Origin: Albibacterium bauzanense
GTDB taxonomy: Bacteria > Bacteroidota > Bacteroidia > Sphingobacteriales > Sphingobacteriaceae
Length of the DNA: 64,000 bases
Assembly: GCF_004339765.1 (NCBI RefSeq)
Contig: NZ_SMGO01000002.1
Location: 620,001 to 684,000, forward strand
Reading direction: 5' to 3'
The notes under the pieces are model-generated. The model was given only the letters and a program-made list of their open reading frames with translations. It searched no databases and was not told where the DNA came from. This document shows, in pieces, positions 30,831-63,515 of this stretch. Made by a program: the position numbers and the translations under genes. Numbering within the stretch: the first letter of the stretch is position 1; every line of letters begins with the position of its first letter.

Positions 30831-32492
30831 TTATTTATTAGTTTCCTTGGCCCAATTATCCCTTAATCCTACAGTACGGTTGAATATAAGTTTGTCAGAA
30901 CTTGTTAGCTTATCCAACGTAAAATAACCCAATCGAATAAATTGATAGCCTCTGCCAACTATTGCATTTGCCAGGTCCGGCTCAATATAAGCGTTTATAA
31001 TAGTTAAGCTATCTGGATTTAATGTCGATTTAAAATCTTCTTCTAAAACAGGATTCTCTACTTGGAATAAGCGATCATATAAGCGAACTTCAGCAGTTTT
31101 GGCATGAAGAGCACTCACCCAATGGATGGTTCCTTTTACCTTTAGGCCACTTGTATCTTCTCCACTTTTAGAGTTTGGTATGTAGCTGCAATGTATTTCT
31201 GTTACCTTACCATCGGAATCTTTCTTAAAATCGTCGCATTGGATAATGTAAGCATTCTTTAAACGTACTTGCTTATCTGGTCCTAAGCGAAAAAATTTCT
31301 TAGGGGCATCTTCCATAAAATCATCACGTTCAATCCACAATTCTCTGCTAAAAGGAATCTCGCGTTCACCCTCACCACCTTCTACTTCCGGATTGTTTTC
31401 TCCAATTAGAATCTCTTCCTTTCCTTCCGGATAGTTTGTAATTATTAGCTTAACAGGATCTAATACAGCCATTCTTCGCCAGGCTGTTTTGTTAAGGTCT
31501 TCACGAATGCAAAACTCCAGCAAGCCAAAATCGATCATATTCTCACGCTTCGCTACACCAATTCTATCGCAGAAATTACGAATACTGGCTGCTGTATAAC
31601 CTCTTCTTCGTAAACCACTAATCGTTGGCATACGTGGATCATCCCATCCATCTACCAGTTTTTCATTAACTAATTGCAATAAGCGGCGCTTGCTCATAAC
31701 GGTATAAGTCATATTTAAGCGAGCAAATTCATATTGTTTTGACTCATAAATACCAATATTCTCTATCAGCCAATTATATAGATCACGATGTGGAATAAAC
31801 TCTAACGTACAAACAGAGTGAGTAATTTCTTCGATCGAATCACTTTGTCCATGTGCAAAGTCATACATTGGGTAAATGCACCACTCATTTCCGGTACGGT
31901 GATGATGTGCATGTTTAATGCGGTATAATAAAGGGTCGCGAAGATGCATATTAGGATTAGCTAAATCAATCTTAGCTCTTAATACCATTTCGCCATCTTG
32001 ATATCTTCCTGCACGCATTTCTTCAAACAAACGCAGGTTATCTTCAACGCTTCTACTACGGGCACTTGTAGGTTTACCAGCTTCTGTTGGAGTTCCTTTA
32101 GCTGCTGCAATTTCTTCAGCACTACTTTCATCTACATAAGCTAAACCTTTTTTGATTAGAATGACTGCGAAATCATATAGTTTTTGGAAATAATCAGAAG
32201 TATATAATTCCTTATCCCATTCAAAGCCTAACCATTTGATATCGTTCTTGATGCTATCTACATATTCCACATCTTCTGTTACAGGATTGGTATCATCAAA
32301 ACGTAAATTGGTCTTGCCATTATATTTTTTTGCTAATCCAAAGTTTAAGCAAATAGATTTAGCATGACCAATGTGTAAATAGCCATTTGGCTCAGGCGGG
32401 AAACGCGTTAAAACACGACCACCATGTTTATTGGTTCTTAAGTCTTCCTCTATAATTTCCTCAATAAAATTGAGTGATTTCTCTTCAGTCAT
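30831..32492 (-). CDS. glnS: glutaminyl-tRNA synthetase
   Basis: 553 aa class I synthetase charging tRNA-Gln. The HIGH motif is in [17 protein letters not shown] (about residues 34-50) and the KMSKS-like motif in [13 protein letters not shown]. The two C-terminal anticodon-binding beta barrels are present ([16 protein letters not shown] and [10 protein letters not shown]-like strands). Presence of GlnRS means this bacterium does not depend only on the transamidation route for Gln-tRNA. The start ATG is only about 8 nt from a TAnnTTTG element. Confidence 0.96.
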
Positions 32493-32536: not shown

Positions 32537-32551
32537 CCTATTATTAATAGG
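32537..32551. promoter_or_regulatory. 15-bp palindrome, possible operator upstream of the LuxR gene
   Basis: CCTATTATTAATAGG is a perfect palindrome of 7-bp half sites around a central T. It lies about 18 bp upstream of the -33 box of the LuxR-type regulator gene and between it and the divergent glnS. LuxR-type regulators often bind such symmetrical sites, so auto-regulation is possible. AT-rich palindromes also arise by chance. Confidence 0.35.
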
Positions 32552-32568
32552 AGAATGAAGTTAATAAT

Positions 32569-32598
32569 TTTGACTCATTATTAATAATGTTATATTTG
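32569..32598 (+). promoter_or_regulatory. Bacteroidota-type promoter of the LuxR gene
   Basis: TTTG at 32569-32572 and TATATTTG at 32591-32598 are separated by 18 nt. Transcription would begin near 32603, about 54 nt before the ATG at 32657. The spacing is one base shorter than the best examples in this window. Confidence 0.55.
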
Positions 32599-32656
32599 TT
32601 AATATAAACTCTGGTAATATATACTCAAATGATATTGCTAACCAATTATTAATACA

Positions 32657-33388
32657 ATGAAAACCAATCGGTTAAGTTCTGGTGAGATGAAGGATTTAGC
32701 GACTTCGCAGATCTTTTCTCTTGAAAATAGAATAGCCAATGGCAAATGTACTTTAAATGAAATTGGAGATTTCATACCAGGATCAGTTATGGTTCAGAAC
32801 CTGAAAATACCACAGGTTACTTATATGAATACTTGGGGGTGTGAAAACTTAGGTCATTCAATGGACGAAATTAATGCACTGGGCGATGAATATTATGATA
32901 AATTCTTTGTGCCTGGTGAATCTGAAAGACTTCTTAATGGTATGAAGAATTACCTTCAGCGTGGTGACCAATCTGAATTATACAGCTTTTTTCAGCAAGT
33001 AAAGACTGGCCCTAAATCTGAATACGGATGGTTTTATACTATATGTAAACATATGAGGGGAAATGTGAAAAATCAAGACCCCACCGGACTCTTTCTTTTA
33101 TCTACCCCAATGTCTGGAATGAACCCTGTAGTAACTAAAGTTAATAAACTTCTTGATGGCAATGAATTTGTTGTTAAACACTACAGAGTGTTCGCACTAT
33201 TAACCAAGCGTGAGAAAGAAATAATTTCACTTCTGACAGAAGGTAAATCTTCACCCGAGATAGCTGACCAACTATTTATCTCAAAACATACGGTCAGCAC
33301 TCATAGGAAGAATATAGCCAGCAAACTTAACATAACATCCTTCGCAGAACTATTAAAGTTTGCTATTGCTTTTGATCTTATCCGGTAA
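32657..33388 (+). CDS. LuxR-type transcriptional regulator with PAS-like sensor domain
   Basis: 243 aa, no membrane segment. The N-terminal part (about 35-165) looks like a PAS-type sensor: VTYMNTWGCENLGHSMDEI is the PAS core pattern, followed by a helix and beta strands (SEYGWFYTICKHM). The C-terminal GerE/LuxR helix-turn-helix runs from LTKREKEIISLLTEGKSS to HRKNIASKLNI (about 185-230), complete. No receiver-domain aspartate is seen, so it is not a classical response regulator. It lies 137 bp upstream of the FAS1-SusD chimera on the same strand, which it may control; the gap has a repeated 8-bp TAGCTGAT (near 33410 and 33465). Confidence 0.85.
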   Translation: MKTNRLSSGEMKDLATSQIFSLENRIANGKCTLNEIGDFIPGSVMVQNLKIPQVTYMNTWGCENLGHSMDEINALGDEYYDKFFVPGESERLLNGMKNYLQRGDQSELYSFFQQVKTGPKSEYGWFYTICKHMRGNVKNQDPTGLFLLSTPMSGMNPVVTKVNKLLDGNEFVVKHYRVFALLTKREKEIISLLTEGKSSPEIADQLFISKHTVSTHRKNIASKLNITSFAELLKFAIAFDLIR

Positions 33389-33525
33389 TTATTTCTTTCA
33401 TATTGTATATAGCTGATCTTCTTATAAATACCTAAAAGTGAGTATTGTATCGAAGCCATCAATAGCTGATTTTTGGATTTAATTGTAAAGTTAAATTATA
33501 ACCAATAGTATTAAAACCAAAAATT

Positions 33526-35712
33526 ATGAAACACAATTATTTGCTAATCGTCACAATATTAGCATTTGGACTCATTACGTCCTGTAAGAAAGATCCTGCT
33601 CCTAAGCCAGATCCAGAACCCGATCCAGGTACAACTATCGTAGATGACCGTCCACCTGAGAAAGTTGTTGAAGCATTAACAACAGAACTTGCCAAAGTAG
33701 AAGATGTCAGTGAGTTTGCCGAAGCCCTGAAAAATGTTGTGCTTACCCAGGAAGAGGTCTCCCAGGGGCTTACTATTTTTGCTCCTTTAAATTCGCAAAG
33801 GTCTGCTCCACAAGCTATAGCATCTCGGTTTTCTAATAGAACAATGGTTGCATCTGCTTCTCAAGAGCGTTTTTCGAACAGATTATCTGCTGAAGTCTCT
33901 GAGCCTGTTGAATTAACTGACGCGGAATTAAGAGATCATATTGTTAAAGGTGTATATAAACTTGCAGATTTAGCAGATGGAACAGTATTGATTACTTTAA
34001 GCGGTAAGAGTCTTAAGATTAAGAAAGAAGGCGATCAGACGTGGATTAATGGAGTAAAGATGAATGAGGGTACAGTCTCGGCTGATGGTAAACAAACAAT
34101 TTTTGTAGTTAATGAGCCATTAACTGGTACCGAAGTAACCGATGAGCCGGCTGCTCCGAGTGGCATTGAGGTTACCGTATGGGATGCAACAGAATGGAGC
34201 CCTGAAAATTCAATGGGTAAAGTTGCTTCAGGTGCACAAGTAGCTATTTATCGCACTCAGTTAGATTATGCCAATGATAATCCACTTTTTGAGGAAGAAT
34301 CAGATGCTCAAGGGAAGGTAACATTTAATAATGTAGAACCAGGAATCTATTATATAGTAGCAACAAAAGGGGATATGAGCAATATCTTTTATAAGAATAA
34401 AAACCCTGGGGATGAGCTATTTACTGGTATGGTTTCAGTGGGAATTTTCCAAACTCAAGGTCAGATGGATGCTGCCGCTGCGAATCAATCAAAAAAGCTT
34501 GGTAATTTTGAATGGATGGATATGAATGGAGATGGAGTGATTAACAATGATGATAGAGTAACTCTGCCAGCTGAATCTGTGGATATAGAAGAGGGTAATA
34601 TAGTTCCAATTTCAATTTTAATTGGCTACAGTGATAACGATGCAATGGGACCTTTAAGAAGAGAATCTCAAGTGCTTGATTTCTTGACAGGTGGTTATAT
34701 AAATATCACAGATTGGTTAAGCAAAGAGATCCCATTGTTGGATGGAGTATTGAGTGATGACTCAGACGCTCCTCAGGATGGGTACTCAACTTATTTGGGC
34801 ATGCCGGCAATCGATAATTTTACCTTTTTAGCAACTAATGTTGCAATTAATCAGTTATGGAATGTTTCATATGGAAATATAAGTAATTTAAATAAATTGA
34901 TCCGTGACGTTCCTAATGTAAATATGGCAAATAAGAACCAAGTACTTGCTCAGGCAAGAGCTTTGCGCGCTGCTATTTACATTCAGTTAATGACCTATTA
35001 CGGAAATGTTCCTATTCAAAACGATGTAGTGATGGAAGCGGGAATAGTTAATAGTAGTAAACAAGAAGTGTATGAGTATATTAAACAAGAGCTAACTGAA
35101 ATTCAGAATGATATGCCTGGCGCAAATACAGGTAATTTAGGGCAATTAAATAACTTGTTTACTTCTGCATTATTATCTAAAGCTGCTTTAGCAAATAAAG
35201 ATTATACACTAGCTGCTGCAGCTGCTGCCGAGGTTATTAATTCAAATAAATATGTATTGGAGAGCTCGAACACTGCTTTTACACAAACTAGTAAAGAAAC
35301 TATATGGGGTTATCCTTCACAGTTTACAAATGAATTCAGAGCATACTTCTTTGGTAGAACATTCTCGCCTGTTATACGCTTATCAGAGATCTATTTAATT
35401 GCTGCTGAAGCGAATATTCAAACAGGAAACGTTCAAAAAGCAATAGGTTATTTAAATCCGATCTTGCAAAGTAATTCATTACCTAGCCTTTTGGGTACAG
35501 AAAGTACAGGTGCTTTAAATAATGCACTCAGAAATGTATGGAAAACTTCCATGCCACGTGAGGGACTTCGCTTTGCTAATTTAGTACGATGGGGAATAGC
35601 TTCTGAAGTATTGGGAAATAAAGGATTCAATGCGTCTAAGCATAATTTATTGCCAATACCTCAAGTAACTATTGATAGATTCTCAGGTATCACACAAAAT
35701 CCTGGATACTAA
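33526..35712 (+). CDS. orphan FAS1 / SpaA-like / SusD C-terminal chimera, lipoprotein
   Basis: 728 aa with an unusual order. Lipoprotein signal ending FGLITSC (Cys 20) and a Pro/Asp linker. Residues about 45-196 resemble a fasciclin FAS1 domain (LTIFAPLN, LRDHIVKGVYKLADL, QTIFVVNEPL) interrupted by a Ser/Ala-rich insert with RFSNR twice. About 213-292 is a prealbumin/SpaA-like sandwich (GKVTFNNVEPGIYYIVATKG). About 329-345 is an EF-hand-like loop, DMNGDGVINNDDR. From about 390 it is a SusD/RagB C-terminal half: ALRAAIYIQLMTYYGNVP, IRLSEIYLIAAEANIQTG, REGLRFANLVRWG and a final QNPGY. There is no partner SusC beside it. The SusD part is about 340 residues, shorter than usual. Function unknown; a surface-exposed adhesin or binder is plausible. 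Confidence 0.75.
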   Translation: MKHNYLLIVTILAFGLITSCKKDPAPKPDPEPDPGTTIVDDRPPEKVVEALTTELAKVEDVSEFAEALKNVVLTQEEVSQGLTIFAPLNSQRSAPQAIASRFSNRTMVASASQERFSNRLSAEVSEPVELTDAELRDHIVKGVYKLADLADGTVLITLSGKSLKIKKEGDQTWINGVKMNEGTVSADGKQTIFVVNEPLTGTEVTDEPAAPSGIEVTVWDATEWSPENSMGKVASGAQVAIYRTQLDYANDNPLFEEESDAQGKVTFNNVEPGIYYIVATKGDMSNIFYKNKNPGDELFTGMVSVGIFQTQGQMDAAAANQSKKLGNFEWMDMNGDGVINNDDRVTLPAESVDIEEGNIVPISILIGYSDNDAMGPLRRESQVLDFLTGGYINITDWLSKEIPLLDGVLSDDSDAPQDGYSTYLGMPAIDNFTFLATNVAINQLWNVSYGNISNLNKLIRDVPNVNMANKNQVLAQARALRAAIYIQLMTYYGNVPIQNDVVMEAGIVNSSKQEVYEYIKQELTEIQNDMPGANTGNLGQLNNLFTSALLSKAALANKDYTLAAAAAAEVINSNKYVLESSNTAFTQTSKETIWGYPSQFTNEFRAYFFGRTFSPVIRLSEIYLIAAEANIQTGNVQKAIGYLNPILQSNSLPSLLGTESTGALNNALRNVWKTSMPREGLRFANLVRWGIASEVLGNKGFNASKHNLLPIPQVTIDRFSGITQNPGY

Positions 35713-35721
35713 TTAGATTCC

Positions 35722-35770
35722 ATAGAGAGATAGAAATTGTAATTATTGATTTCTATCTCTCTATTTCTTG
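35722..35770 (+). terminator. strong hairpin terminator after the FAS1-SusD gene
   Basis: Positions 35722-35737 are exactly reverse-complementary to 35749-35764 (16 bp, no mismatch) with an 11-nt loop; TTTCTTG follows. It lies 9 bp after the stop codon at 35712 and immediately before the -7 element of mfd. Confidence 0.75.
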
Positions 35771-49817: not shown

Positions 49818-52800
49818 ATGAAACAAAAACTACTAGCTTTCTTCATGGTGGGAATGATGCTGATCGGATCGGCGTTCGCACAACGGATCGTAAGTGGTAC
49901 TGTAATTTCACAAGAGGATGGGTCAACCCTTCCCGGAGTTTCAGTACAAGTATCCGGCACCACTGTAGGAACACAAACAGATGTCAATGGACATTACAGT
50001 CTATCTGTACCAGCTACAGCTACGACTATCAATTTTTCATTTATTGGCTTTGTGACACAAAGCGTTACAATCGGAAATCAAACTGCTATTAATGTAAGCC
50101 TGGCTTCGGATGCTACTCAATTAGGAGAAGTTGTGGTAACGGCTGTTGGTATTACAAGAGAGGCCAAATCTTTGGGTTACTCAGCTTCTGTACTTAGGAC
50201 GGATGATTTGACTGTTGCTCGTGAGTCGAATGTCTTGAATTCGCTTGCAGGTAAAGCTGCTGGGGTTCGTGTCAATTCTACTTCAGGAACCTTGGGTGGT
50301 TCTGCAAAAATCGTGATTCGTGGTGTCAATTCATTAGAATCGAATTCAGTACTATTTGTTGTTGATGGTGTACCTGTATCTAACAGTACATCTGTTGGAG
50401 GGACTGGCGGTACCGTGGATTTTGGTAACCGTATGGGAGACTTAGGTTCAGATGATATTGAATCAATGACTGTTCTGAAAGGTGCTGCTGCAACTGCTTT
50501 ATACGGTTCAAGAGCAAAAGATGGAGCGATCATCATCACAACTAAAAAGGGTAATAGAAATACACCAATGTCTATTGATGTAAACTCTTCAGTTCGTTTC
50601 GAGAGCCCTTTAATACTTCCAGATTTTCAAAATGAATATGCACAGGGTAACCAAGGTGTATATAGTTTGAAATATGAAAATGGATGGGGTCCTAAAATAG
50701 CAGATGTTCAAGATCAGACATTTAAGGATTTTTTAGGTGATGACGTTAAATTACAAGCTCACCCTGATAACGTAAAAGACTTTTTCCAAACAGGAGTTTC
50801 TTATATTAATAATATTAGTTTCTCTGGTGGAGATGAGAAGTCTGATTACAGATTGGGTATTTCTGCTATTAATGAATCAGGGATTATTCCTGAGTCTACT
50901 TTAGATAAATATAACTTTACTGTGAATGCAGGTCGTCAATTTAGTCCAAAAGTATCATCTCGTTTCTCTGGAATGTATACTAATATTGGATCAGATGGCC
51001 GCCCGGCTCAAAGTTCAAATAACACAAATATTATTACTTCTTCTATCTATAGCTTGCCTAGAGTAGTTGATATTAATAAATTGAAAGCAAACTTTGAAGA
51101 TCCTATTACCGGTGAGCAGATCTTCATGAGTACTGATAAAAACGGTAATAACCCTTATTGGATTCTTAACTATAATAAGAGTTCAAATAAAGTAGATCGT
51201 TTTGTAGGATCTTATAATGTTACTTACAAACCAGTTGATTGGATTACCATCTCTAACAATTTAGGAGGTGATATCTATACTGAAAAGAGATCTACAGTGG
51301 TACGTAAAGGTACTGCAGGAACAATTAATGGTAAGTTTACAAATACGGATCTATTTTACAAACAACTTAACAATGATTTAATTGTAACTGTTGACCGTGA
51401 TGTAAATGAAGATTTAAGCTTGAAGTTGATTGTCGGAAACAACATCAATGAGGTTACTTCTGAATCTACTAATGTTGATGCGGTTGATTTAACGATTGAT
51501 CAATTGTGGAACTATACTAATGCTGCAAGTAAGACTCCGACATTAACTTATTCTAAACGAAGAATAATAGGTGTTTATGGAGATTTAGGCTTTAATTATA
51601 AAGACTTCTTATATGCCAATGTTACTGGTAGAAATGACTGGTCTTCTACGCTTCCTGTTGCAAACAGATCTTATTTCTACCCTTCAGTGAGTGGAGGTTT
51701 AATATTTTCTGAGCTGCTTAAGGACAGCAACATGGATTGGTTAAGTTTTGGTAAATTGAGAGGAAGCTGGGCTTCTGTAGGTAGTGATTTAACTGCTTAT
51801 CAATTAGATTATCAATACACTCCGGTTTCTCAGGTTTTCTTCCAATTCCTTGGTAATTCAAATATATTCCCAATTGGCCCTATTACTACTGCCTTTACCG
51901 GACCAAGAATATTGCCGAATGAGAATTTGAAACCACAGAGACAGAAATCATTCGAAATTGGTACTGATCTTCGTTTCTTTAGTAACCGATTAGGGGTTGA
52001 TTTTACCTATTATAATACTGTAACACGTGATCAATTGATTCCAATTGATATTGCAACGTCTACTGGATATAGAAGTAAATATGTTAACGTAGGTGCTATT
52101 CGTAATAAGGGTGTTGAATTAATGTTAACAGGAACTCCCGTAAAAACTCGTGATTTTGCATGGGATATTAATGTAAACTTTGCAAAGAATAATCAAGTTG
52201 TAGAAGAGCTTACTGAAGGTATAACACAATATAGCTTAGCAAGTGGATGGAGCGGATTACAAATTAAAGCTGAAGTAGGTGAGCCATTCAGTATTTATGG
52301 TTCTGCATGGGCTGTAGATCCTGCTTCTGGAAAATACATTATTGATGCTAATAGTGGGTTTAAAACGACTGTTCTTGACCAAAATTTGGGTAGTATTTAC
52401 CCTGATTGGACTATGGGTATTAATAACCAATTTTCTTATAAAGGAATATCTTTAAGTGCATTGGTTGATATTCGTCAAGGAGGTGTATTCTATTCAGGAA
52501 CTGTTTCTGATTTAAGGACTGGTGGAATGGCGATTGAGACGGGTGGTGATAGAGGTCCTTTTGTAGATGATGGGGTGATATTACAGGGTGACACTTATGT
52601 TCCTAATACAGTTCCGGTGGCAGGTGCCCAAGAGTATTGGTCAAATGAAGCAAAGAGTGATAATACACAAGGTAACTTATTTGATGCTTCTTTCATTAAA
52701 TTAAGAGAAGTAAGATTGGGTTATGCCTTACCACAGAGTTTGCTTAAAAATACTTCCGCAATTAAAGGAATAGAGATTGGTGTTGAAGGTAGAAACCTTT

Positions 52801-52937
52801 GGTTAATTAAGAGCCATGTTCCGCATGTTGATCCAGAATTAAATTTCTTTGGTGCTGGTAGTGTGGGTGAAGGTGTAGAATTTAATAGTATGCCTTCTAC
52901 TCGTTCATTTGGATTCAACTTAAGATTAAAGTTTTAA
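49818..52937 (+). CDS. SusC/RagA-family TonB-linked outer-membrane protein (no STN domain)
   Basis: 1039 aa. Signal peptide MKQKLLAFFMVGMMLIGSAFA. CarboxypepD_reg-like domain about 22-95 (GTVISQEDGSTLPGVSVQVSG). Plug domain about 110-240 with the SusC marks LFVVDGVPV and VLKGAAATALYGSRAKDGAI. The 22-strand barrel follows, ending SMPSTRSFGFNLRLKF. It imports ligands captured by the SusD partner, which starts 12 bp downstream. Unlike the copy at 58 kb it has no STN signalling domain and no ECF/FecR genes beside it. No glycoside hydrolase is adjacent, so the substrate is unknown; peptides or other oligomers are possible. Confidence 0.95.
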   Translation: MKQKLLAFFMVGMMLIGSAFAQRIVSGTVISQEDGSTLPGVSVQVSGTTVGTQTDVNGHYSLSVPATATTINFSFIGFVTQSVTIGNQTAINVSLASDATQLGEVVVTAVGITREAKSLGYSASVLRTDDLTVARESNVLNSLAGKAAGVRVNSTSGTLGGSAKIVIRGVNSLESNSVLFVVDGVPVSNSTSVGGTGGTVDFGNRMGDLGSDDIESMTVLKGAAATALYGSRAKDGAIIITTKKGNRNTPMSIDVNSSVRFESPLILPDFQNEYAQGNQGVYSLKYENGWGPKIADVQDQTFKDFLGDDVKLQAHPDNVKDFFQTGVSYINNISFSGGDEKSDYRLGISAINESGIIPESTLDKYNFTVNAGRQFSPKVSSRFSGMYTNIGSDGRPAQSSNNTNIITSSIYSLPRVVDINKLKANFEDPITGEQIFMSTDKNGNNPYWILNYNKSSNKVDRFVGSYNVTYKPVDWITISNNLGGDIYTEKRSTVVRKGTAGTINGKFTNTDLFYKQLNNDLIVTVDRDVNEDLSLKLIVGNNINEVTSESTNVDAVDLTIDQLWNYTNAASKTPTLTYSKRRIIGVYGDLGFNYKDFLYANVTGRNDWSSTLPVANRSYFYPSVSGGLIFSELLKDSNMDWLSFGKLRGSWASVGSDLTAYQLDYQYTPVSQVFFQFLGNSNIFPIGPITTAFTGPRILPNENLKPQRQKSFEIGTDLRFFSNRLGVDFTYYNTVTRDQLIPIDIATSTGYRSKYVNVGAIRNKGVELMLTGTPVKTRDFAWDINVNFAKNNQVVEELTEGITQYSLASGWSGLQIKAEVGEPFSIYGSAWAVDPASGKYIIDANSGFKTTVLDQNLGSIYPDWTMGINNQFSYKGISLSALVDIRQGGVFYSGTVSDLRTGGMAIETGGDRGPFVDDGVILQGDTYVPNTVPVAGAQEYWSNEAKSDNTQGNLFDASFIKLREVRLGYALPQSLLKNTSAIKGIEIGVEGRNLWLIKSHVPHVDPELNFFGAGSVGEGVEFNSMPSTRSFGFNLRLKF

Positions 52938-52949
52938 AAGAAAAATCTC

Positions 52950-54413
52950 ATGAAAATAAGAAATAAAATATTAATAGGCACCCTTACTGTATTGCTTGCA
53001 GTAGGAGGAATGTCCTGCAAAAAGTATTTAGATATAAATACGAGTCCGCTAACAGCAACCAAGGTTGATGCTGGTCTTTTATTCGGCTATGCTATCACAT
53101 CATGGGATGTTAATAAAAACGGTGGTGATACTTGGCTTCCGATTGGTTTATTCATTCAGAATATTGCCAGCGGTGGTGATTTCGGTTGGGAGAAAGGTAA
53201 TTTATATGATGTAAGTGTATACTCTATACAAAACTCATGGTCGCTTTATTATGCAACTGGGGGCAATAACCTTGAGTTAGCTATACGTGATGCAGAAGCA
53301 GCTGATCCGGTTAATAATAATACTGCAGCGCAGTGTAAGATTATTAAGGCGCTAATGATGTATGAGGCAACAACACTATTTGGAGATGTGCCATTCACTG
53401 AGGCATGGCAACCAGAAGAGTTTCCATATCCAAAGTTTGATGCACAAAAGGATGTGTTTGAGGGTATCATTGCATTATTAGACGAGGCTGTAGCTCAGAT
53501 GGATCCATCTAGTCCTTTAAGAATAACTGATTATGATGTTTTTTATAAAGGTGATTTAGCTAAATGGACTAAACTTGCTAATTCTATCAAGTTTAAGACA
53601 TTAATGACGATGGTAGATAAGGACCCAAGTAAAGCTGCTGCAATAGGCGCTATGCTTAGTAACCCAGGTTCGATGCTTTCATCTGCTGCGGATGATATGA
53701 CTTATAAATATTATGAAAAGTCTGATAACGAAAATCCTAAATACAGACTTTTCAAGGAATATACCGGAGGAAAGAATGTTTGGTTCTTTGCTAATAATAA
53801 TGTGTTTAAATACATGGAGCCTAAGAATGACCCTAGGATTCCTCAGTATTTTGATCTTGGATTAGGAGAGGGCGTTACTACTTATGAAGGTGTGGATACT
53901 GAAGTTGATGCTGATAATAATACGTCTTTATTGAGCTCTTCTTATTTATACAGGAAAGATGCTCCTTCATTGATACTGTCTTATCAAGAAATCTTGTTAT
54001 TACAAGCAGAAGCTTATGCAAGAGGTTTAGGAGTTGCGAAGAATTTAGTAACTGCTCAACAATTGTTTAGAAAAGGTGTAGAAGCAAGTATGAATTTCTA
54101 TGAAGCAGATCCTGATGCGATTCAGGTTTATTTGGATACGCAATTGCCGAATTTGGTTACTGCTGCAGATCCAGCAAAAGAAATTCATCTTCAACAATGG
54201 ATTGACTTAATGGATAGACCTTTAGAGGCGTTTGTACAATGGAGACGTTCTGGTTCTGAAGGAAACGAAGTTCCTACTTTGACATTACCTCCAGGAGCAA
54301 CCGCTGGTCCTTTGATTAGACGTTTTGTTTTACCTCCAAACGAGATCTCGTCTAATCCAAATGTTCCAGATCCACAACCAAAGTATTATGACAAAGTTTG
54401 GTTTGATTTATAG
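52950..54413 (+). CDS. SusD/RagB-family lipoprotein (SusD-like_2 type)
   Basis: 487 aa. Lipoprotein signal with lipobox Cys in TVLLAVGGMSCKKY (Cys 23). The N-terminus KKYLDINTSPLTATKVDAG and the helical TPR core AAQCKIIKALMMYEATTLFGDVPFTEAW are those of the SusD/RagB and SusD-like_2 families. It ends with the usual loop-rich C-terminal region and a YDKVWFDL tail typical of the second SusD subfamily. It is the surface lid of the SusC barrel encoded 12 bp upstream. A strong terminator 29 bp after the stop closes the two-gene operon. Confidence 0.93.
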   Translation: MKIRNKILIGTLTVLLAVGGMSCKKYLDINTSPLTATKVDAGLLFGYAITSWDVNKNGGDTWLPIGLFIQNIASGGDFGWEKGNLYDVSVYSIQNSWSLYYATGGNNLELAIRDAEAADPVNNNTAAQCKIIKALMMYEATTLFGDVPFTEAWQPEEFPYPKFDAQKDVFEGIIALLDEAVAQMDPSSPLRITDYDVFYKGDLAKWTKLANSIKFKTLMTMVDKDPSKAAAIGAMLSNPGSMLSSAADDMTYKYYEKSDNENPKYRLFKEYTGGKNVWFFANNNVFKYMEPKNDPRIPQYFDLGLGEGVTTYEGVDTEVDADNNTSLLSSSYLYRKDAPSLILSYQEILLLQAEAYARGLGVAKNLVTAQQLFRKGVEASMNFYEADPDAIQVYLDTQLPNLVTAADPAKEIHLQQWIDLMDRPLEAFVQWRRSGSEGNEVPTLTLPPGATAGPLIRRFVLPPNEISSNPNVPDPQPKYYDKVWFDL

Positions 54414-56593: not shown

Positions 56594-58015
56594 TTAATTA
56601 ACATCCCACCATACCTTTGAATTTATATCGTCGCCACCCATTTGCTGTGCAGCTGCCTCATAATTCGCAGGATTGTATATTTTCTGAACATCCGGATATA
56701 AAAGGCGTGAAGGTAGAATAGCGTCGTTCAACATGCTGGTAGTTGTTGGAAGTTCTGGAAATCCGGTACGACGGTAATCTGCCCATTGCTGATTATCTGT
56801 AAAGTATGTTGCTAAATACTTATGTAAGATAATCCTTTCCAAAGTACCATCATAATTAGCTAAAGGGCTATCGAAATAACTTTCCGGAAGCGATTCTTTC
56901 GTCCAAAGTTCAATAGCAGCATGTATACCTGATTTGAAGTGGCCTTCTGCATCGTTCCAATGCCCTTTTTGAGCTAATTCAGCTTGGATAAATTCAACTT
57001 CTGCTAAGGTCAGGATCGGGATAATCATGGGTGCTACTACTTGTTGGTTATTCATATAAGATGGTGAATAATCAAAGCTGGCTGCATCATAGCCACTTGG
57101 AATACCTTTGTAACCAATTGTTACGGTATTTCTAACAGCCTGGCCGGCAATAAGCGGACGGCGAGGGTCTTCAAGGTCATTCAATACATCTATAAAGAAT
57201 TCGCCTATGGAATGTTGATTACTAAAATCCAGTGCACGAGACCATGGAGAAATATTTGGGGTAATACCTGTTATTAATAATACAGCAGCATCAGTAGCGT
57301 CTGTAATAATCGGATTGCCAACCGGGTCTTGAAGAATCGCAGTCATTTCTGAATACGAAGCAGGACGGACATCTGACGTACGTAATAATAATCTTAAGCG
57401 AAGTGAATTTGTGAATTTTTGCCATTTTCTGGTGTTATTCGCAAAAAGGATATCAGTACCATAGTTCATGGTCTGTGTATGGTCATAAAGGGAGTTTGCA
57501 GTTGCTAAGTCACTTAATATCTGCGTATAGATATCCTCTTGCCTGTCATACTTAGGTTGCAAAACACCTTCTTCTGCTTGCGATGCTTCGGAGAATGGAA
57601 TATCTCCAAAGGTATCTGTAAGGTTTGAATAAATCCATGCATTTAAGGTAAGTCCAATTGCGGTGTAGTTCACTGCCTGATCGGCTTCGGCCGCCTTGAG
57701 CATTTCACGCAGGTTTTTAGCCCATTTATACCCTGCATTCCATTGCGAGTTACCAGTTGTTTCCAAAATTTCATAACGCTGGATACCAGCATAATATTGA
57801 GGATAAGAAAGTTGCACTTGCATTAGCTGAGCATTCACGTTATAGTGATTTGTCAGGTTATTAGATGTCATGTTGTAAATTACCTCGTTTAATAAGGTGC
57901 CGGGGCTGATCTGGTCGATCAGGTTCGGATTTGTATTGATTTCTTCAAAATTATCGGTACAGCTTGAGAAACCTAATAACAAGCATGCCGCTACAATTAT
58001 TTTTATCTTTTTCAT
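56594..58015 (-). CDS. SusD/RagB-family lipoprotein, partner of the STN-SusC
   Basis: 473 aa. Lipoprotein signal with lipobox Cys in VAACLLLGFSSCTDNF (Cys 19). N-terminus EEINTNPNLIDQISPGTLLN, helical core LTLNAWIYSNLTDTFGDIPFSEA, NGTDILFANNTRKWQKFTNSLRLRLL split over helices, and the C-terminal ARRTGFPELPTTT-like segment (DYRRTGFPELPTT). These are SusD-like_2 features. It follows SusC by 11 bp and precedes the EEP phosphoesterase by 6 bp. It captures the ligand at the cell surface. Confidence 0.93.
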   Translation of the reverse strand: MKKIKIIVAACLLLGFSSCTDNFEEINTNPNLIDQISPGTLLNEVIYNMTSNNLTNHYNVNAQLMQVQLSYPQYYAGIQRYEILETTGNSQWNAGYKWAKNLREMLKAAEADQAVNYTAIGLTLNAWIYSNLTDTFGDIPFSEASQAEEGVLQPKYDRQEDIYTQILSDLATANSLYDHTQTMNYGTDILFANNTRKWQKFTNSLRLRLLLRTSDVRPASYSEMTAILQDPVGNPIITDATDAAVLLITGITPNISPWSRALDFSNQHSIGEFFIDVLNDLEDPRRPLIAGQAVRNTVTIGYKGIPSGYDAASFDYSPSYMNNQQVVAPMIIPILTLAEVEFIQAELAQKGHWNDAEGHFKSGIHAAIELWTKESLPESYFDSPLANYDGTLERIILHKYLATYFTDNQQWADYRRTGFPELPTTTSMLNDAILPSRLLYPDVQKIYNPANYEAAAQQMGGDDINSKVWWDVN

Positions 58016-58026
58016 TCTAAACAGGA

Positions 58027-61000
58027 TTAAAAGTCAGCTTTTAAAGTAAGACCATAAGTGGCTGTATATGGCATTGGAGCCATTTCAAGACCTTGTACGA
58101 AATTAGTACCGTTCATGGTACCACCTTCTGGATCCCAGAATGGGAATTTGTCGAATACAGCTAGATTTCGCCCAAATACCGTTAATGATAAGTTATTAGC
58201 ATAAATAGACTTGGCAAATTTTTGTGGTAGATTATAGGTTACCGATACGTCACGAACTTTAATAAAACTAGCATCGAATACACCTGCTTCAGCGATTTGG
58301 TGATATTGACTCCAATAAGAGTTTGTTGCTGCTTTTACTGTATTTGGTGAATATGATCCATCTGTATTTCTCATTACCCCTTCACCTATAATAAATCCTT
58401 CTTCACGACCTGGAATGGTGTTTGTTGTAAATCCGTCCCAGGAAGAGCGATTATAAGTACCCGAATAAATCAGACCTCCATATTGTCCATCCAGGGTGAA
58501 GCTTAAACGGAAATCTTTATAACGTAAGGTATTTGTTAAACCGGCTTTCCAATCAGGAGCAATATTTCCAATGTATTCTGAAGTGCTTGTTCGTACTGGA
58601 ATACCATTTTCGAAAACTTGATTGCCAGCATCGTCGCGAAGGAATTTTGGTCCCCAAAGATCTGTTGTACGCCCACCTACGGTACCGATCAATGATGCTT
58701 GCCAAACAGTTGATAGGGTCTGTTTTTCAAGATTATCGTTGAGTTCCATAATCTCGTTTTCGTTTGTCGACCAGTTCAACATGACATTCCAGTCAAAATC
58801 AGGCTTTACGATCGGTTTAGCATTCAAGACTAATTCTACTCCTTTATTTTGAACTTCACCTGCGTTAATAATTCGACTGCTGTATCCGGTAACGATATCA
58901 TTTGGCAAAGAAAGAATTTGGTTTTCTGTACTTGACATATAGTAAGTAGCATCCAGGCTCAAACGATTGTTCAGTAAGCGAATATCAAATCCGGTTTCCC
59001 AGCTTGATGTGATTTCAGGTTTTAGATCCGCATTAAACATGGACGAAGGCATAACTGCGGAACTTGCAAAACCACTTTGGGAATAGTATTTTGAAGTTTG
59101 ATATGGATTTGCATCGCTACCTACCTTCGCATAAGAAAGTCTGTATTTCAAAAAGCTAATCGGTTCTGGTAAGTTAAATAACTCGGATACGATAAAGCTA
59201 GAGCTAACAGAAGGATAGAAATACGAATTATTATTCTTAGGTAAGGTGCTCGACCAGTCATTACGGCCCGTAATATCCAGATAGATACTGCTTCTCCAAC
59301 CTAGTGTAAACATTCCATATAAACTGTTGATCTGTTTTTTTGCATCATTGGTTCTTACAAGTGGATTGTTTACTCCATTAGCTAGTGTATATACGCCTGG
59401 AACAATTAAGGCATCGATGGAAGACATCACATTGCGGTGATCGTAGGTCATTTTGCTTGCGCCTCCAACTACTGTATAGTCGAAATCATCAGAAATGCGA
59501 TCCTTATACGTTAAAAGGAAGTCGGCATTAATTTCCTGACTTGATACATCTTGTCTTCCATAATATCCGCGAGCGTGTTTCTTACTTGAATAACCACGTT
59601 GAGTTTCACGTAATTGAGAAAGGGAATTATAAGATAGGCGGCCCATTAAGTCTAGCTTATTCGTCAGTTTGATATCTGCACGAACGTTTCCTACCAATTG
59701 GTTACTATTTAGCGGGTTTGTATCAACATACATCAAGAAATAGGGGTTGCTTGACCAATCAGAGAAAGGGTTTAATTGGCTCACATTTTCCTTACCAGTT
59801 TGCCAAATTGGTTTATACCAATTAATATCTACATTGGGTAACAAGAACATCATGAAATAACCCAGGGAACCATTACTCATACCAAATCCCGGAAGGTTAT
59901 CACTTGTTCTGTTATTGAAGTTGATTGTTGATGATAGCTTAATACGATTTGTAATATCATAGTTCCCGTTGAATGAAACTGAATTACGTTTGTAACCTGT
60001 GTTTGGGGCAATGTATTCATTGTCTGTACGTGACAGATTAAGACGCATAGAACCTTTATCATCACCTCCTTGTAGTGTTAATGAATTCTCGAAAGTCATA
60101 CCTGTACGATAGAAATCCTTCATATTATCTTTATAAGGTTTCCAAGTTGTACGCTCAGTTCCCATAGTTTGAGTTTTCGGATCGTATTGATAAAATTGCT
60201 GTCCTTCAAACTTTGGACCCCATGCGGCTGGAGTATTTGTATGCGGACCATCTTCTGAGTTTCCCCAAGAGTAGTAAGGTTCGCCATTTGCATCTAATGC
60301 ATTTAACCGACCGCCACCATATTCGTATTGATAGTTCGGCCAATTGATTATATGATCAAATAAGGCAGTGGAGTTAAAACCGATACCCATTTTCTGGTTC
60401 TTTTTGCCTGATTTTGTAGTGATAATTACTGCACCGTTTGCAGCGCGAGAACCATATAGAGCTGCTGCTGAAGGACCTTTTAGGACACTCACACTTTCAA
60501 TATCATCTTGTCTCAGTTCAGAGATTGCATTTCCATAATCTACGGGGGCTTCTGTACCATATGCTGCACCAACGTTATTACCATAAGCTGTTGTCTCCTG
60601 ATTCATCGGAACACCGTCGATTACAATCAGTGCATTATTGCCACCAGCTGCAAGGGAAGTTGTTCCTCTTAATTGAATTGCTTGAGAGTTAATGGGTCCT
60701 GTATTGCCATTAATGATATTTAAACCGGCAACTTTACCTTTCAAACCTTCTGACCAGCTTGTTGATGGGGCTGTCGATAATTGCTCTGCGTTGATTGTTT
60801 GTTGAGCATAGCCAATTTCTTTCTCTTCACGAGTGATACCGAGTGCTGTTACAACTACCTCTTGCATTGCACTACTACCTTCTATCAACATTGCATTTAC
60901 CGTTACGGTTGAACCGTTTGTTATGGCAATTGCCGACCTTTCAAAGTTTTCGTGCCCGAGGTAAGTTACTTTTAATGAGTAAGTGCCTGCAGGGACATCC

Positions 61001-61473
61001 AGCGTGAAATTTCCTTGAGCATCGGTCATGGTTGTCCGGTTCAATTCAAGAACCTCAACAGTTGCACCTGCAAGAGCTATTGCAGAGCTACTGGTAACTT
61101 TTCCAATAAGACGTCCGTTTTGCTGTGTCCGTTGAGTTGTAGTATTTGCATTGGATGAGATGTTTCTTCTGATGGTGACAATCTTATCCTCTATTGTATA
61201 GGTATAGTCGTCATCAAATGATTTATCCAATACCTCGTTGATGTCGGCATTTTCAACATCGATATTTATTTTCTTAGCGTCATTGAAGATATTGGCATCG
61301 TAGAAGAAATCATATCCGCTTTGATTTCTAATTTCTCGTAAAACATCAGAAATACTGGTGTTTTCTTTTTTTATGGTCAGTCGTTGACCATAGGTTGCAT
61401 ATGCCTGCATTATAAAACAGGTAAGCAATATCATCGTGGCTTTTATAACACGCATGAATGGTTGAAATTTCAT
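58027..61473 (-). CDS. SusC/RagA-family TonB-linked outer-membrane protein with N-terminal STN domain
   Basis: 1148 aa. Signal peptide (ATMILLTCFIMQAYATYG). An STN (secretin/TonB N-terminal) domain follows at about 35-100 (SISDVLREIRNQSGYDFFYD), which in FecA-type receptors touches the anti-sigma factor. Then a CarboxypepD_reg domain (about 125-200), plug (GNNALIVIDGVPMNQ, SVLKGPSAAALYGSRAANGA) and a barrel ending LTLKADF. Its STN domain and the FecR and ECF genes upstream form a signalling cassette: ligand binding releases the sigma factor and switches on the operon. A hairpin separates it from fecR. Confidence 0.95.
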   Translation of the reverse strand: MKFQPFMRVIKATMILLTCFIMQAYATYGQRLTIKKENTSISDVLREIRNQSGYDFFYDANIFNDAKKINIDVENADINEVLDKSFDDDYTYTIEDKIVTIRRNISSNANTTTQRTQQNGRLIGKVTSSSAIALAGATVEVLELNRTTMTDAQGNFTLDVPAGTYSLKVTYLGHENFERSAIAITNGSTVTVNAMLIEGSSAMQEVVVTALGITREEKEIGYAQQTINAEQLSTAPSTSWSEGLKGKVAGLNIINGNTGPINSQAIQLRGTTSLAAGGNNALIVIDGVPMNQETTAYGNNVGAAYGTEAPVDYGNAISELRQDDIESVSVLKGPSAAALYGSRAANGAVIITTKSGKKNQKMGIGFNSTALFDHIINWPNYQYEYGGGRLNALDANGEPYYSWGNSEDGPHTNTPAAWGPKFEGQQFYQYDPKTQTMGTERTTWKPYKDNMKDFYRTGMTFENSLTLQGGDDKGSMRLNLSRTDNEYIAPNTGYKRNSVSFNGNYDITNRIKLSSTINFNNRTSDNLPGFGMSNGSLGYFMMFLLPNVDINWYKPIWQTGKENVSQLNPFSDWSSNPYFLMYVDTNPLNSNQLVGNVRADIKLTNKLDLMGRLSYNSLSQLRETQRGYSSKKHARGYYGRQDVSSQEINADFLLTYKDRISDDFDYTVVGGASKMTYDHRNVMSSIDALIVPGVYTLANGVNNPLVRTNDAKKQINSLYGMFTLGWRSSIYLDITGRNDWSSTLPKNNNSYFYPSVSSSFIVSELFNLPEPISFLKYRLSYAKVGSDANPYQTSKYYSQSGFASSAVMPSSMFNADLKPEITSSWETGFDIRLLNNRLSLDATYYMSSTENQILSLPNDIVTGYSSRIINAGEVQNKGVELVLNAKPIVKPDFDWNVMLNWSTNENEIMELNDNLEKQTLSTVWQASLIGTVGGRTTDLWGPKFLRDDAGNQVFENGIPVRTSTSEYIGNIAPDWKAGLTNTLRYKDFRLSFTLDGQYGGLIYSGTYNRSSWDGFTTNTIPGREEGFIIGEGVMRNTDGSYSPNTVKAATNSYWSQYHQIAEAGVFDASFIKVRDVSVTYNLPQKFAKSIYANNLSLTVFGRNLAVFDKFPFWDPEGGTMNGTNFVQGLEMAPMPYTATYGLTLKADF

Positions 61474-61605: not shown

Positions 61606-62787
61606 TTATTCTATTACAATGGACCTCCTTCCTTTTCTAATTGCTTTTACTGTACCAGTTGATTCAAGCATGGTTATAATGCTAGACAAAGGCCGCTCTC
61701 GCGATACCATGCCACTAAATTTTAACGAAGTCAGATGGGCCGGACAGTTAATATCGATGTTATACCAACGGGATACTTGTTCCAAAATATCCCCTAACTT
61801 TTCGTTTTTAAAGATAAAATCTCCGTTTTTCCAAGCGAGAGCTCTTTCTATATCAGCCTGAATTACATAGACTTGATCGCGCACCAGCGCTTGCTGTCCC
61901 GGAGATAGGAATACATTCTTAGTTATATCTTTGGATATTAGTTTAACCTTTCCTGTTATTAACGTGACTTCCATTTGATCACTTCGATAGTCATTCACAT
62001 TGAATTGTGTACCTAAAACTTCGATTGTTTGCTTGCTGGTTTCAACGAGGAAAGGAATTCGTTTCTTTTGATCTGTTGATTCATACTGGGTGGCAATATC
62101 AAAATACACTTCGCCGGTTACCTTTACTTTTCTTTCGAATGGTGAAAACTGAACTGGAAATGTTATGGAAGAATAGGCATTTAACCAGGCTATAGATCCA
62201 TCTGGTAAGACAACCTGATATTGTCCTCCCTTTGGAGTTTCTATGGTATTATAGTTGTAAGCATCAGTCGGAAAAACCAGCTTATTATTCTTGAAATTCA
62301 TTGAATAAACCAATGTGCCAGTCTCTTCATTAGTAATTTGAGTGCCTTGCTGTTCAGCAATTCTGCCATTGATTGTATCTGCCAAGGCAATTTTTGTTCC
62401 ATCGGAAAGGGTTAAATAGGCATGATTTCCTCCCGGAGCAATATCGGCCATCACTACAGTCTCTGAATGAGAATAATCTTTCATTAGAAAGAACGTGATA
62501 CCACAAATAAGCAGTAAGGCAGCAGCAATGGAAGCCACCTTTGCCAAGCTTCTGTGTTTAATTGGTAAGACTCGTCCTTGATTGGGTTCTTCTATTGAAT
62601 ACTTTTCAGCAAATCGAGGTGAACTTTTTAGCTTGTTTAAAATGCTTTCGACTCGTTCATCGCTTAAAAAGGTGCCTTCACTTTCTGCCCCGATTTCCAT
62701 AAACCAAGCCTCAATGATGCGTAACTCCTCTTTAGTGCAGGTATTCTGACTGTATTTTTCTAATAAATGATGGATATTTTCTTTCAC
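61606..62787 (-). CDS. FecR-family anti-sigma factor
   Basis: 393 aa, starting with GTG at 62787; no in-frame ATG fits. An N-terminal cytoplasmic anti-sigma part (about 1-75) with YSQNTCTKEELRIIEAWFME, one membrane segment at about 80-100 (LAKVASIAAALLLICGITFF), then the periplasmic FecR domain (about 115-300) with GGQYQVVLPDGSIAWLNAYS and VTGEVYFDIA, and the C-terminal DUF4974 domain (GDFIFKNEKLGDILEQVSRW). It relays the STN signal of SusC to the ECF factor. Typical of Bacteroidota nutrient-uptake cassettes. Confidence 0.93.
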   Translation of the reverse strand: MKENIHHLLEKYSQNTCTKEELRIIEAWFMEIGAESEGTFLSDERVESILNKLKSSPRFAEKYSIEEPNQGRVLPIKHRSLAKVASIAAALLLICGITFFLMKDYSHSETVVMADIAPGGNHAYLTLSDGTKIALADTINGRIAEQQGTQITNEETGTLVYSMNFKNNKLVFPTDAYNYNTIETPKGGQYQVVLPDGSIAWLNAYSSITFPVQFSPFERKVKVTGEVYFDIATQYESTDQKKRIPFLVETSKQTIEVLGTQFNVNDYRSDQMEVTLITGKVKLISKDITKNVFLSPGQQALVRDQVYVIQADIERALAWKNGDFIFKNEKLGDILEQVSRWYNIDINCPAHLTSLKFSGMVSRERPLSSIITMLESTGTVKAIRKGRRSIVIE

Positions 62788-62921
62788 CTATAACATTTTA
62801 ATAAGCATAATGAGACAGCTTTTTAATGGTCTGCTATAGATATAGGAACAGAAAATGAAGTTTCGGCTATTGCTAAAATCCGATTTAACGATTTAGTAAT
62901 CTTATTAACATTGGCTTAATG

Positions 62922-63515
62922 TTAATAGAGAAGGAAATAACTCAGATATAGAAGGTAACTTGTGTTTTTCAAGGCTTCTGAAACACGTTTACGAATGGTT
63001 TTTAATTGGTTGTGAATCGTATTAGGTGAAGTAGATAAGGTTTTAGCTATTTCTGCGATCGACAGATCTTTTTCATAACGTAGTTGGTAAACCTGCAGCA
63101 TCCTTGTTGGCAAAGAAGAAATAGTATTAGCGACCAGGGATTCCATTTCTTCGGATTGCGTATGTCGAAATGCAGCAGAGAGTTCTGATGTCTCTGAGAG
63201 ATCATCCGACATATTTTCCCATATTTCAATAAATTTAGGCTGAACTTTATTTTTCCGATAGTAATTCAGAACCCGATTCATCGCCATCCCATAGAGATAG
63301 GGAAAGATATCTCCCTTGGGTTGATATGCTTCCCTTTTTTCCCAAAGTGTCAGAAAGATATCCTGGGTGAGGTCTTCTGCTATTTCCAGATTTTCAATAC
63401 GTTTACTGATTTCCCGATAGAGACTACGTACGTAGCGACGATAGATCATCTCAAAAGCCAGTCTATCTCCACTTTTCAATAAACGCCAAAGCTGTTGATC
63501 TGAATACGATTCCAA
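62922..63515 (-). CDS. ECF RNA polymerase sigma-70 factor
   Basis: 197 aa. Start TTG at 63515: the frame upstream has no ATG before a stop, and a -7 element at 63556 fits. Region 2: LAFEMIYRRYVRSLYREISK and EIAEDLTQDIFLTLWEKREA (-10 binding). Region 4: LPTRMLQVYQLRYEKDLSIA and EIAKTLSTSPNTIHNQLKTI (-35 binding HTH). The C-terminus ends in a hydrophobic TSYLLYLSYFLLY, a common tail of this Bacteroidetes family 1 of ECF factors. It controls the SusC/SusD operon through the FecR/STN relay. Confidence 0.93.
   Translation of the reverse strand: MESYSDQQLWRLLKSGDRLAFEMIYRRYVRSLYREISKRIENLEIAEDLTQDIFLTLWEKREAYQPKGDIFPYLYGMAMNRVLNYYRKNKVQPKFIEIWENMSDDLSETSELSAAFRHTQSEEMESLVANTISSLPTRMLQVYQLRYEKDLSIAEIAKTLSTSPNTIHNQLKTIRKRVSEALKNTSYLLYLSYFLLY

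Follow-up and report, generated by a model that had tools for sequence, protein, structure and literature searches.

A FAS1-SusD mosaic lipoprotein gene of Albibacterium bauzanense and the putative LuxR-type operator in front of it

The closest described counterparts of the locus reported here include lipoproteins of the SusD/RagB family (PF07980/PF14322), the regulators VqmA and EL222, and promoters activated in the class II LuxR-type manner. The locus lies in a window of 64,000 nucleotides from Albibacterium bauzanense (contig NZ_SMGO01000002.1, positions 620,001 to 684,000, forward strand) and consists of a luxR-type gene and a gene encoding a mosaic lipoprotein of 728 amino acids (aa; Table 1). 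Both open reading frames (ORFs) are on the + strand, 137 base pairs (bp) apart, at the positions given by an earlier note made from the sequence alone. Like the SusD/RagB proteins, the product is a lipoprotein with a SusD fold over residues 372-728 and the QNPGY end of solved SusD chains; it differs from them in that a FAS1 domain and a beta sandwich are inserted between lipid anchor and SusD module, a middle stretch of the module is missing and SusC is not encoded next to it. VqmA and EL222 carry, as does the LuxR protein of the window, a PAS domain and a LuxR helix-turn-helix (HTH) within one short protein, at 14-18% identity to the window protein, the likeness being one of predicted fold. 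In class II LuxR-type activation the lux box lies near -42.5, and the dyad described below (about -43.5) is likewise situated next to the -33 region, but its promoter class uses the Bacteroidetes -7 element TAnnTTTG instead of a -10 TATAAT box. The domains, the lack of a nearby SusC gene and the conserved operator with its spacing are apparent from the sequences themselves. On balance we lean towards the view that the product is a mosaic lipoprotein which is anchored at the surface, serves as a binder without a SusC partner and is expressed under the control of a promoter dependent on a LuxR-type activator. No description of a FAS1-SusD chimera or of this operator/-7 promoter class was found in the open-access literature, most subscription papers being outside that search.

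When the upstream regions were compared, one common block was obtained, AATACYY-N6-RRGTATT, and in the window it is represented by the dyad AATACCTAAAAGTGAGTATT. The -7 box GATTTTTG behind it was the unique best of 31 spacings. Placing this box at -12 to -5, as given for the Bacteroidetes -7 consensus TAnnTTTG in the available text of PMC9723704, puts the centre of the dyad at about -43.5 and so next to the -33 region. Operator and -7 box together matched 19 of 20 positions at spacing 21, a combined score that was reached by 0 of 2000 shuffles; for the six full-length copies of the gene, the score was equalled or beaten by 0, 0, 0, 0, 1 and 0 of 2000 shuffles. The dyad was detected upstream of all seven full-length or broken copies, in one genome (G019) in changed form, where two dyads are present, one with a -7 box at 22 bp and the other without. 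FAS1-propeller genes carried the dyad in 8/8 cases, matching a template very like it at 12 to 14 of 14 positions. In a null of random windows, drawn from loci that included operator loci, 52 of 1945 scored 12 or more. Among spacings from 8 to 38, the best -7 match was located at 21 bp in 14 of 15 loci (7 chimera and 8 FAS1-propeller loci), and outside these elements the aligned promoters of the five loci that were compared shared only 15-35% identity. All six full-length copies, and the decayed copy too, are accordingly preceded by a putative LuxR-type operator with a -7 box whose distance from it hardly varies.

The exact promoter pattern, defined as the operator plus an exact -7 box at 20-22 bp, had 108 matches, which were distributed over 60 of the 251 family genomes searched (reversed control: 0), and was present in 44 of 247 genomes of the class, which we take to be Bacteroidia (reversed control: 1 match). 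With spacing left free from 8 to 38 bp in 35 genomes, 72 of 91 matches fell at 21 bp, five at 20, five at 22 and nine elsewhere, three of these nine at 32 bp, which is one helical turn further; the reversed control gave 2 matches. Since 32 of the 35 genomes had been picked because the exact-pattern search had matches there, spacings of 20-22 are favoured in this count. The window genome harbors 8 dyad sites at up to one mismatch, compared to 0 in the control, and four of the 8 are located inside ORFs. At two places (G012:C1:360343-360420 and G101:C2:2619744-2619821) two promoters stand back to back on a common dyad, and each of them has a separate -7 box at 21 bp.

The evidence that LuxR-HTH proteins might bind the dyad is circumstantial and is no proof of binding by the LuxR protein of the window. 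A scan of 30 PAS-LuxR loci, covering flanks up to 1.5 kb, identified a perfect dyad in five (window included) and a dyad with one mismatch in one more, the reversed control giving 1 match at up to one mismatch. Conversely, 30 of the 108 exact-pattern sites were taken as promoter loci, and LuxR-HTH ORFs were present in 4 of them. A divergent 253-aa LuxR protein adjoins 5 of the 8 FAS1-propeller relatives, all of which have the operator. According to the gene maps, the order PAS-luxR, promoter, target found in the window recurs in G146, and the promoter is divergent from PAS-luxR in G174 and G077. In G098, a tandem PAS-luxR pair (L161, 2469-3985) starts 43 bp away from a dyad whose -7 box faces the other way. 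A 94-aa HTH-only LuxR protein is encoded directly behind a perfect operator/-7 promoter (L149, 4041-4325; also L172) in G019, the sole genome with a changed chimera dyad. In two genomes of one genus label, a dyad (one perfect, the other with one mismatch) lies between a PAS-luxR gene and the gene for a secreted protein of 750-784 aa that appears multicopper oxidase-like by eye (L233, 1969-5106; L235, 225-3588). We consider it evenly balanced whether the window gene belongs to an undescribed type of promoter that occurs throughout the bacterial class and in which the -33 element would be replaced by a LuxR-HTH activator on AATACYY-N6-RRGTATT, 21 bp upstream of TAnnTTTG. This architecture would be common to PAS-LuxR, response-regulator and HTH-only LuxR proteins and would drive, besides other genes, those of shuffling FAS1, sandwich and SusD surface lipoproteins that bind ligands without SusC.

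The LuxR protein of the window had been described as a PAS-LuxR regulator, and for the GerE HTH this was confirmed by Pfam (residues 181-235, expectation value (E) 4.5e-19, 68.3 bits versus a cut-off of 23.5). A PAS row was absent from the Pfam search; the PAS part is supported by the predicted structure (mean predicted local distance difference test (pLDDT) 79), which comprises a PAS-like fold over residues 43-151 plus the HTH. The PAS fold gave matches with Z scores up to 13.4, the value obtained for the RpfR PAS domain (root mean square deviation (rmsd) 2.2 over 101 residues), and EL222, 3clo and VqmA were among the top Foldseek rows. Upstream of luxR itself the palindrome reported earlier, CATTATTAATAATG, is present near 32575, but it was rejected as a conserved operator: dyad arms of the same length arose in 279 of 2000 shuffles, and the motif ATTATTAATA was found upstream of 0 of 6 luxR relatives examined. 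This motif has 4 matches in the region, a number that 0 of 2000 intergenic shuffles reached, the motif having been chosen after inspection. Unlike this palindrome, the stronger, conserved dyad sits in the intergenic gap between luxR and the lipoprotein gene.

In the lipoprotein, C20, K21 and K22 at the lipobox are invariant across the five aligned full-length proteins. The FAS1 domain proposed earlier was borne out by PF02469 (E 2e-8, 34.9 bits versus a cut-off of 22), which matched in 5/5 members. The proposed prealbumin/SpaA-like sandwich scored below the Pfam cut-offs in the window protein (SpaA 18.1 versus 23.1, SdrD_B 22.6 versus 29.7) and found its support in the relative L110, where SpaA passed (26.2 versus 23.1). 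The AlphaFold2 model had a mean pLDDT of 88.6 and a predicted template modelling score of 0.71; the alignment behind it comprised 47 rows, some of the short ones being misplaced. The fold search was made with the whole model, and SusD structures fill its match lists.

It had further been claimed that only the C-terminal half of a SusD protein is present. This was rejected, as the N-terminal model PF14322 (SusD-like_3; residues 437-531, 40.7 bits) and the C-terminal model PF07980 (SusD_RagB; residues 615-728, 50.8 bits) both matched. In addition, residues 377-728 of the predicted model aligned to 6gcz with a Z score of 38.6 (rmsd 2.2, 341 residues), and therefore the SusD scaffold is present from start to end. 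The missing part is the middle, where 41 profile positions stand against 152 residues of 6gcz and 27 against 118 of 9sjj, corresponding to a loss of roughly 90-110 residues. Presumably, part of the known sugar site of the B. theta SusD falls within this stretch. The case that would have refuted the earlier note, an N-terminal half of ordinary SusD type lacking a FAS1 fold, did not arise.

Between sandwich and SusD module, residues 297-357 matched the late part of five ORFs of the same genome (1031-1122 aa; E 1.4e-4, 3.3e-4, 0.014, 0.016 and 0.075, the last three weak) and SusC chains of the PDB (8aa4_A 790-836, E 8e-4; 6zlt_B, 0.39; 5t3r_D, 0.48). They resemble the GIFQ...DxNxDGxIxxxDR stretch in the late barrel of SusC chains, and two relatives were 44-46% identical over 65 aa to a SusC part of the window genome. 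In our reading, this stretch derives from SusC or is related to it and has been joined to the sandwich; compared to SusC it amounts to about 60 residues only, barrel and plug being absent. Within it lies a 12-residue DxNxDG loop, in which D332, N334, D336, G337, I339 and D343 are invariant in the five aligned full-length proteins and which probably binds calcium. The loop had been assigned as EF-hand-like, and as a loop it is present, but a separate EF-hand domain was not supported, since no EF-hand Pfam row was obtained up to E 10 and the flanks resemble SusC, the likeness extending past the loop (GIFQTQ...). In one search, a dockerin loop (E 5e-4) scored slightly better than the SusC chain 8aa4_A. 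As hinge points of SusC, L6 and L7 are named in the accessible text of PMC7782687 and loop 8 in that of PMC7618045; the segment could not be mapped to a loop, and hence not identified as a hinge loop. Eight loci (L068-L071, L073, L116-L118) encode stand-alone lipoproteins of 165-204 aa that consist of the sandwich and the SusC-like calcium-loop segment only, and the dyad is absent there (best 9 to 11 of 14).

To place the protein in its family, 399 family genomes were scanned with at most five candidates scored per genome. The FAS1-sandwich part was matched at 1e-8 in 28 of these genomes, and six full-length copies were found (window genome, G028, G032, G098, G019 and G732), all with an open frame, in addition to a decayed copy in G086 with three TGA and one TAA codons inside the matched stretch. 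The full-length proteins are 32-37% identical over five genus labels, and domain order, calcium-loop residues and promoter are kept. Other arrangements examined were FAS1-sandwich (4 loci), sandwich-SusD (G065), FAS1-SusD (G006) and the sandwich alone (8 loci), and from this variety it follows that the domains shuffle. FAS1 was also observed with TIG and NHL-like repeats at 8 loci (L063-L067, L072, L114 and L115), Pfam being run on L064 and L065 only. These FAS1-TIG-NHL lipoproteins of Sphingobacteriaceae share the FAS1 domain and the operator/-7 promoter with the chimera, whereas their C-terminal half is made of TIG and NHL-like repeats and not of sandwich and SusD. A class-wide search with the full-length profile returned the window only, a result of little weight, as scoring was limited to two candidates per genome.

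By blastp with two SusC parts of the window genome, no SusC was detected in the 8-10 kb on each side of any of the five other full-length copies, so that homologues are not always seated beside a SusC gene. This supports the earlier proposal of an unusual chimera that probably has a surface-binding role other than that of a SusC lid. A SusC ORF was present no more than about 7 kb away from FAS1-sandwich genes and from the sandwich-SusD gene in G065. A LuxR relative was likewise found by blastp in the 8-10 kb on each side of 0/5 other full-length copies, and the suggested conserved two-gene system of LuxR and lipoprotein was therefore rejected.

Table 1. Coordinates of features at the luxR-lipoprotein locus (positions in the window)
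Feature	Position	Strand	Remarks
Glutaminyl-tRNA synthetase type gene	30831-32492	-	housekeeping neighbour, named by eye from sequence
Three places with ATTATTAATA upstream of luxR	32540-32654	+	at 32540, 32577/32579 (palindrome) and 32645; possible site, not conserved
luxR ORF	32657-33388	+	243 aa, PAS-LuxR-type transcription regulator, candidate activator of the lipoprotein gene
LuxR-type dyad operator (putative), AATACCTAAAAGTGAGTATT	33427-33446	+	AATACYY-N6-RRGTATT matched 14/14
-7 box, GATTTTTG	33468-33475	+	5/6 to TAnnTTTG; 21 bp past operator, 50 bp ahead of start codon
Mosaic lipoprotein ORF	33526-35712	+	728 aa; FAS1 / prealbumin-like / SusC-like segment / SusD
Signal peptide with lipobox	33526-33588	+	cysteine 20 (ITSC-KKD), from sequence
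FAS1 (fasciclin) domain, residues 60-199	33703-34122	+	PF02469
Prealbumin/SpaA-like beta sandwich, residues about 213-296	34162-34413	+	weak Pfam; strands in model
SusC-like segment, residues 297-357	34414-34596	+	sequence matches to five large ORFs of the genome and to SusC chains
Calcium-binding-like loop DMNGDGVINNDD, residues 332-343	34519-34554	+	D332-x-N-x-D-G-x-I-x-x-x-D343
SusD module without middle stretch, residues 372-728	34639-35709	+	Pfam, fold alignment, profile comparison
Perfect 16-bp inverted repeat, terminator-like	35722-35764	+	directly after lipoprotein stop codon
mfd type gene	from ~35798	+	housekeeping neighbour, named by eye from sequence

The only same-genus genome returned by the searches was G017, in which the order of 13 surrounding genes is kept at 53-92% protein identity. 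The glutaminyl-tRNA synthetase and mfd type genes adjoin each other there, so that neither luxR nor the lipoprotein gene is present at this place; this difference is either a gain in the window genome or a loss in G017. No target-site repeat was noticed at the empty site in a look by eye, made without a test, and a foreign base composition that would mark a transfer was not seen (guanine-cytosine content 37.8% in the lipoprotein gene versus 37.4% in the window). Terminator-like sites such as the one behind the lipoprotein gene numbered 2 versus 1.3 expected from shuffles, which is weak as a scan. As had been noted before, the ORF map of the window contains no SusC gene adjoining the lipoprotein gene. 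An ordinary SusC/SusD-type pair is encoded at 49818-54413, 14 kb from the chimera; its TonB-dependent receptor has plug and CarboxypepD_reg domains, and the gene for a SusD-like_2 protein comes next. A second likely SusD/SusC-type pair, recognised by eye only, lies at 56594-61473 on the - strand, and the adjoining ORFs at 61606-63515 read by eye like an anti-sigma factor and an ECF sigma factor.

In the model that we favour, a LuxR-HTH protein, in the window genome most likely the adjacent PAS-LuxR protein, would sense a signal via its PAS domain, dimerise and bind the dyad (33427-33446), whose centre near -43.5 places it directly against the -33 region. It would thereby help the primary sigma factor to use the weak -7 box GATTTTTG; both the binding by this particular protein and activation rather than repression are what we infer. 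The lipoprotein would then be exported and probably exposed at the surface, where its FAS1, prealbumin-like and calcium-loop units, together with the trimmed SusD helical scaffold, may bind a surface or matrix ligand instead of closing a transporter.

Several observations weigh against this model. The window promoter is one -7 base off the exact pattern, and the window genome therefore has 0 exact matches at fixed and at free spacing; the consensus was drawn partly from the six loci scored by shuffling, so that the shuffle counts are not independent. The promoter of the FAS1-SusD gene (G006) reached only 17/20, at spacing 20, and four Pedobacter-type FAS1-sandwich genes and the sandwich-SusD gene scored 12-13. 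As to the regulator, no PAS-LuxR was found in G019 at E 1e-40, so that regulation in that genome may fall to a different LuxR-HTH protein. Moreover, 24 of 30 PAS-LuxR loci had no dyad in their flanks even at one mismatch, a PAS-LuxR gene adjoins the lipoprotein gene only in the window (0/5 others), and LuxR genes are found near a minority of promoter loci (4/30). The control for the latter count, 7/62, is not clean: its seven LuxR loci are all FAS1-propeller loci, with the operator confirmed in five of their genomes, among which G756 with its two loci is not counted, and the 62 include chimera loci, which carry the dyad. These regulator counts would be expected if the dyad were the site of a different, non-LuxR-type regulator and the LuxR adjacency in the window incidental. 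We judge this unlikely given the variety of LuxR-HTH genes that adjoin the dyad or lie at most a few kb away, namely PAS-LuxR relatives (L161, L194), a response regulator (L148; L157 and L168 the same by eye), the 94-aa HTH-only protein (L149) and the 253-aa protein, the part common to them being the HTH. The dyad moreover resembles NarL-type half-sites.

The TonB receptor/SusD-like pair 14 kb away also speaks against the favoured model, since a distant SusC partner may exist. The lipoprotein could in that case be an ordinary transporter lid for a SusC barrel encoded elsewhere, with the extra domains merely extending it, and the retention of both ends of the SusD fold, the SusC-like segment and the many SusD-like ORFs of the genome, besides the pair at 49818-54413, would agree with such a role. 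It nevertheless appears improbable in view of the 0/5 other full-length copies near SusC, the loss of the middle SusD stretch and the about 350 residues between lipid anchor and SusD module, where the accessible text of PMC7782687 gives a segment of ~15 residues between anchor and lid for the levan transporter. Finally, the patchy occurrence (6 full-length copies in the 399 genomes scanned), the broken copy in G086 and the absence at the same place in G017 could be signs of a decaying mosaic that arose by recombination among outer-membrane genes and has no selected function. That genes whose products are 32-37% identical, over five genus labels, still share domain order, calcium-loop residues and promoter, and that the frame is open in 6/6, makes this very improbable.

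Taken together, the type of regulator is ordinary and the domains are known, but their combination is unusual and the promoter class looks real. To our knowledge, few activator-dependent promoters have been mapped in this bacterial group. The locus provides a testable operator, a spacing rule and candidate regulators for such promoters, and any genome of the class can be scanned for the pattern. As for the protein, if it acts as the favoured model proposes, it would show that the SusD scaffold is detachable from the transporter and can be reused in a modular surface binder.

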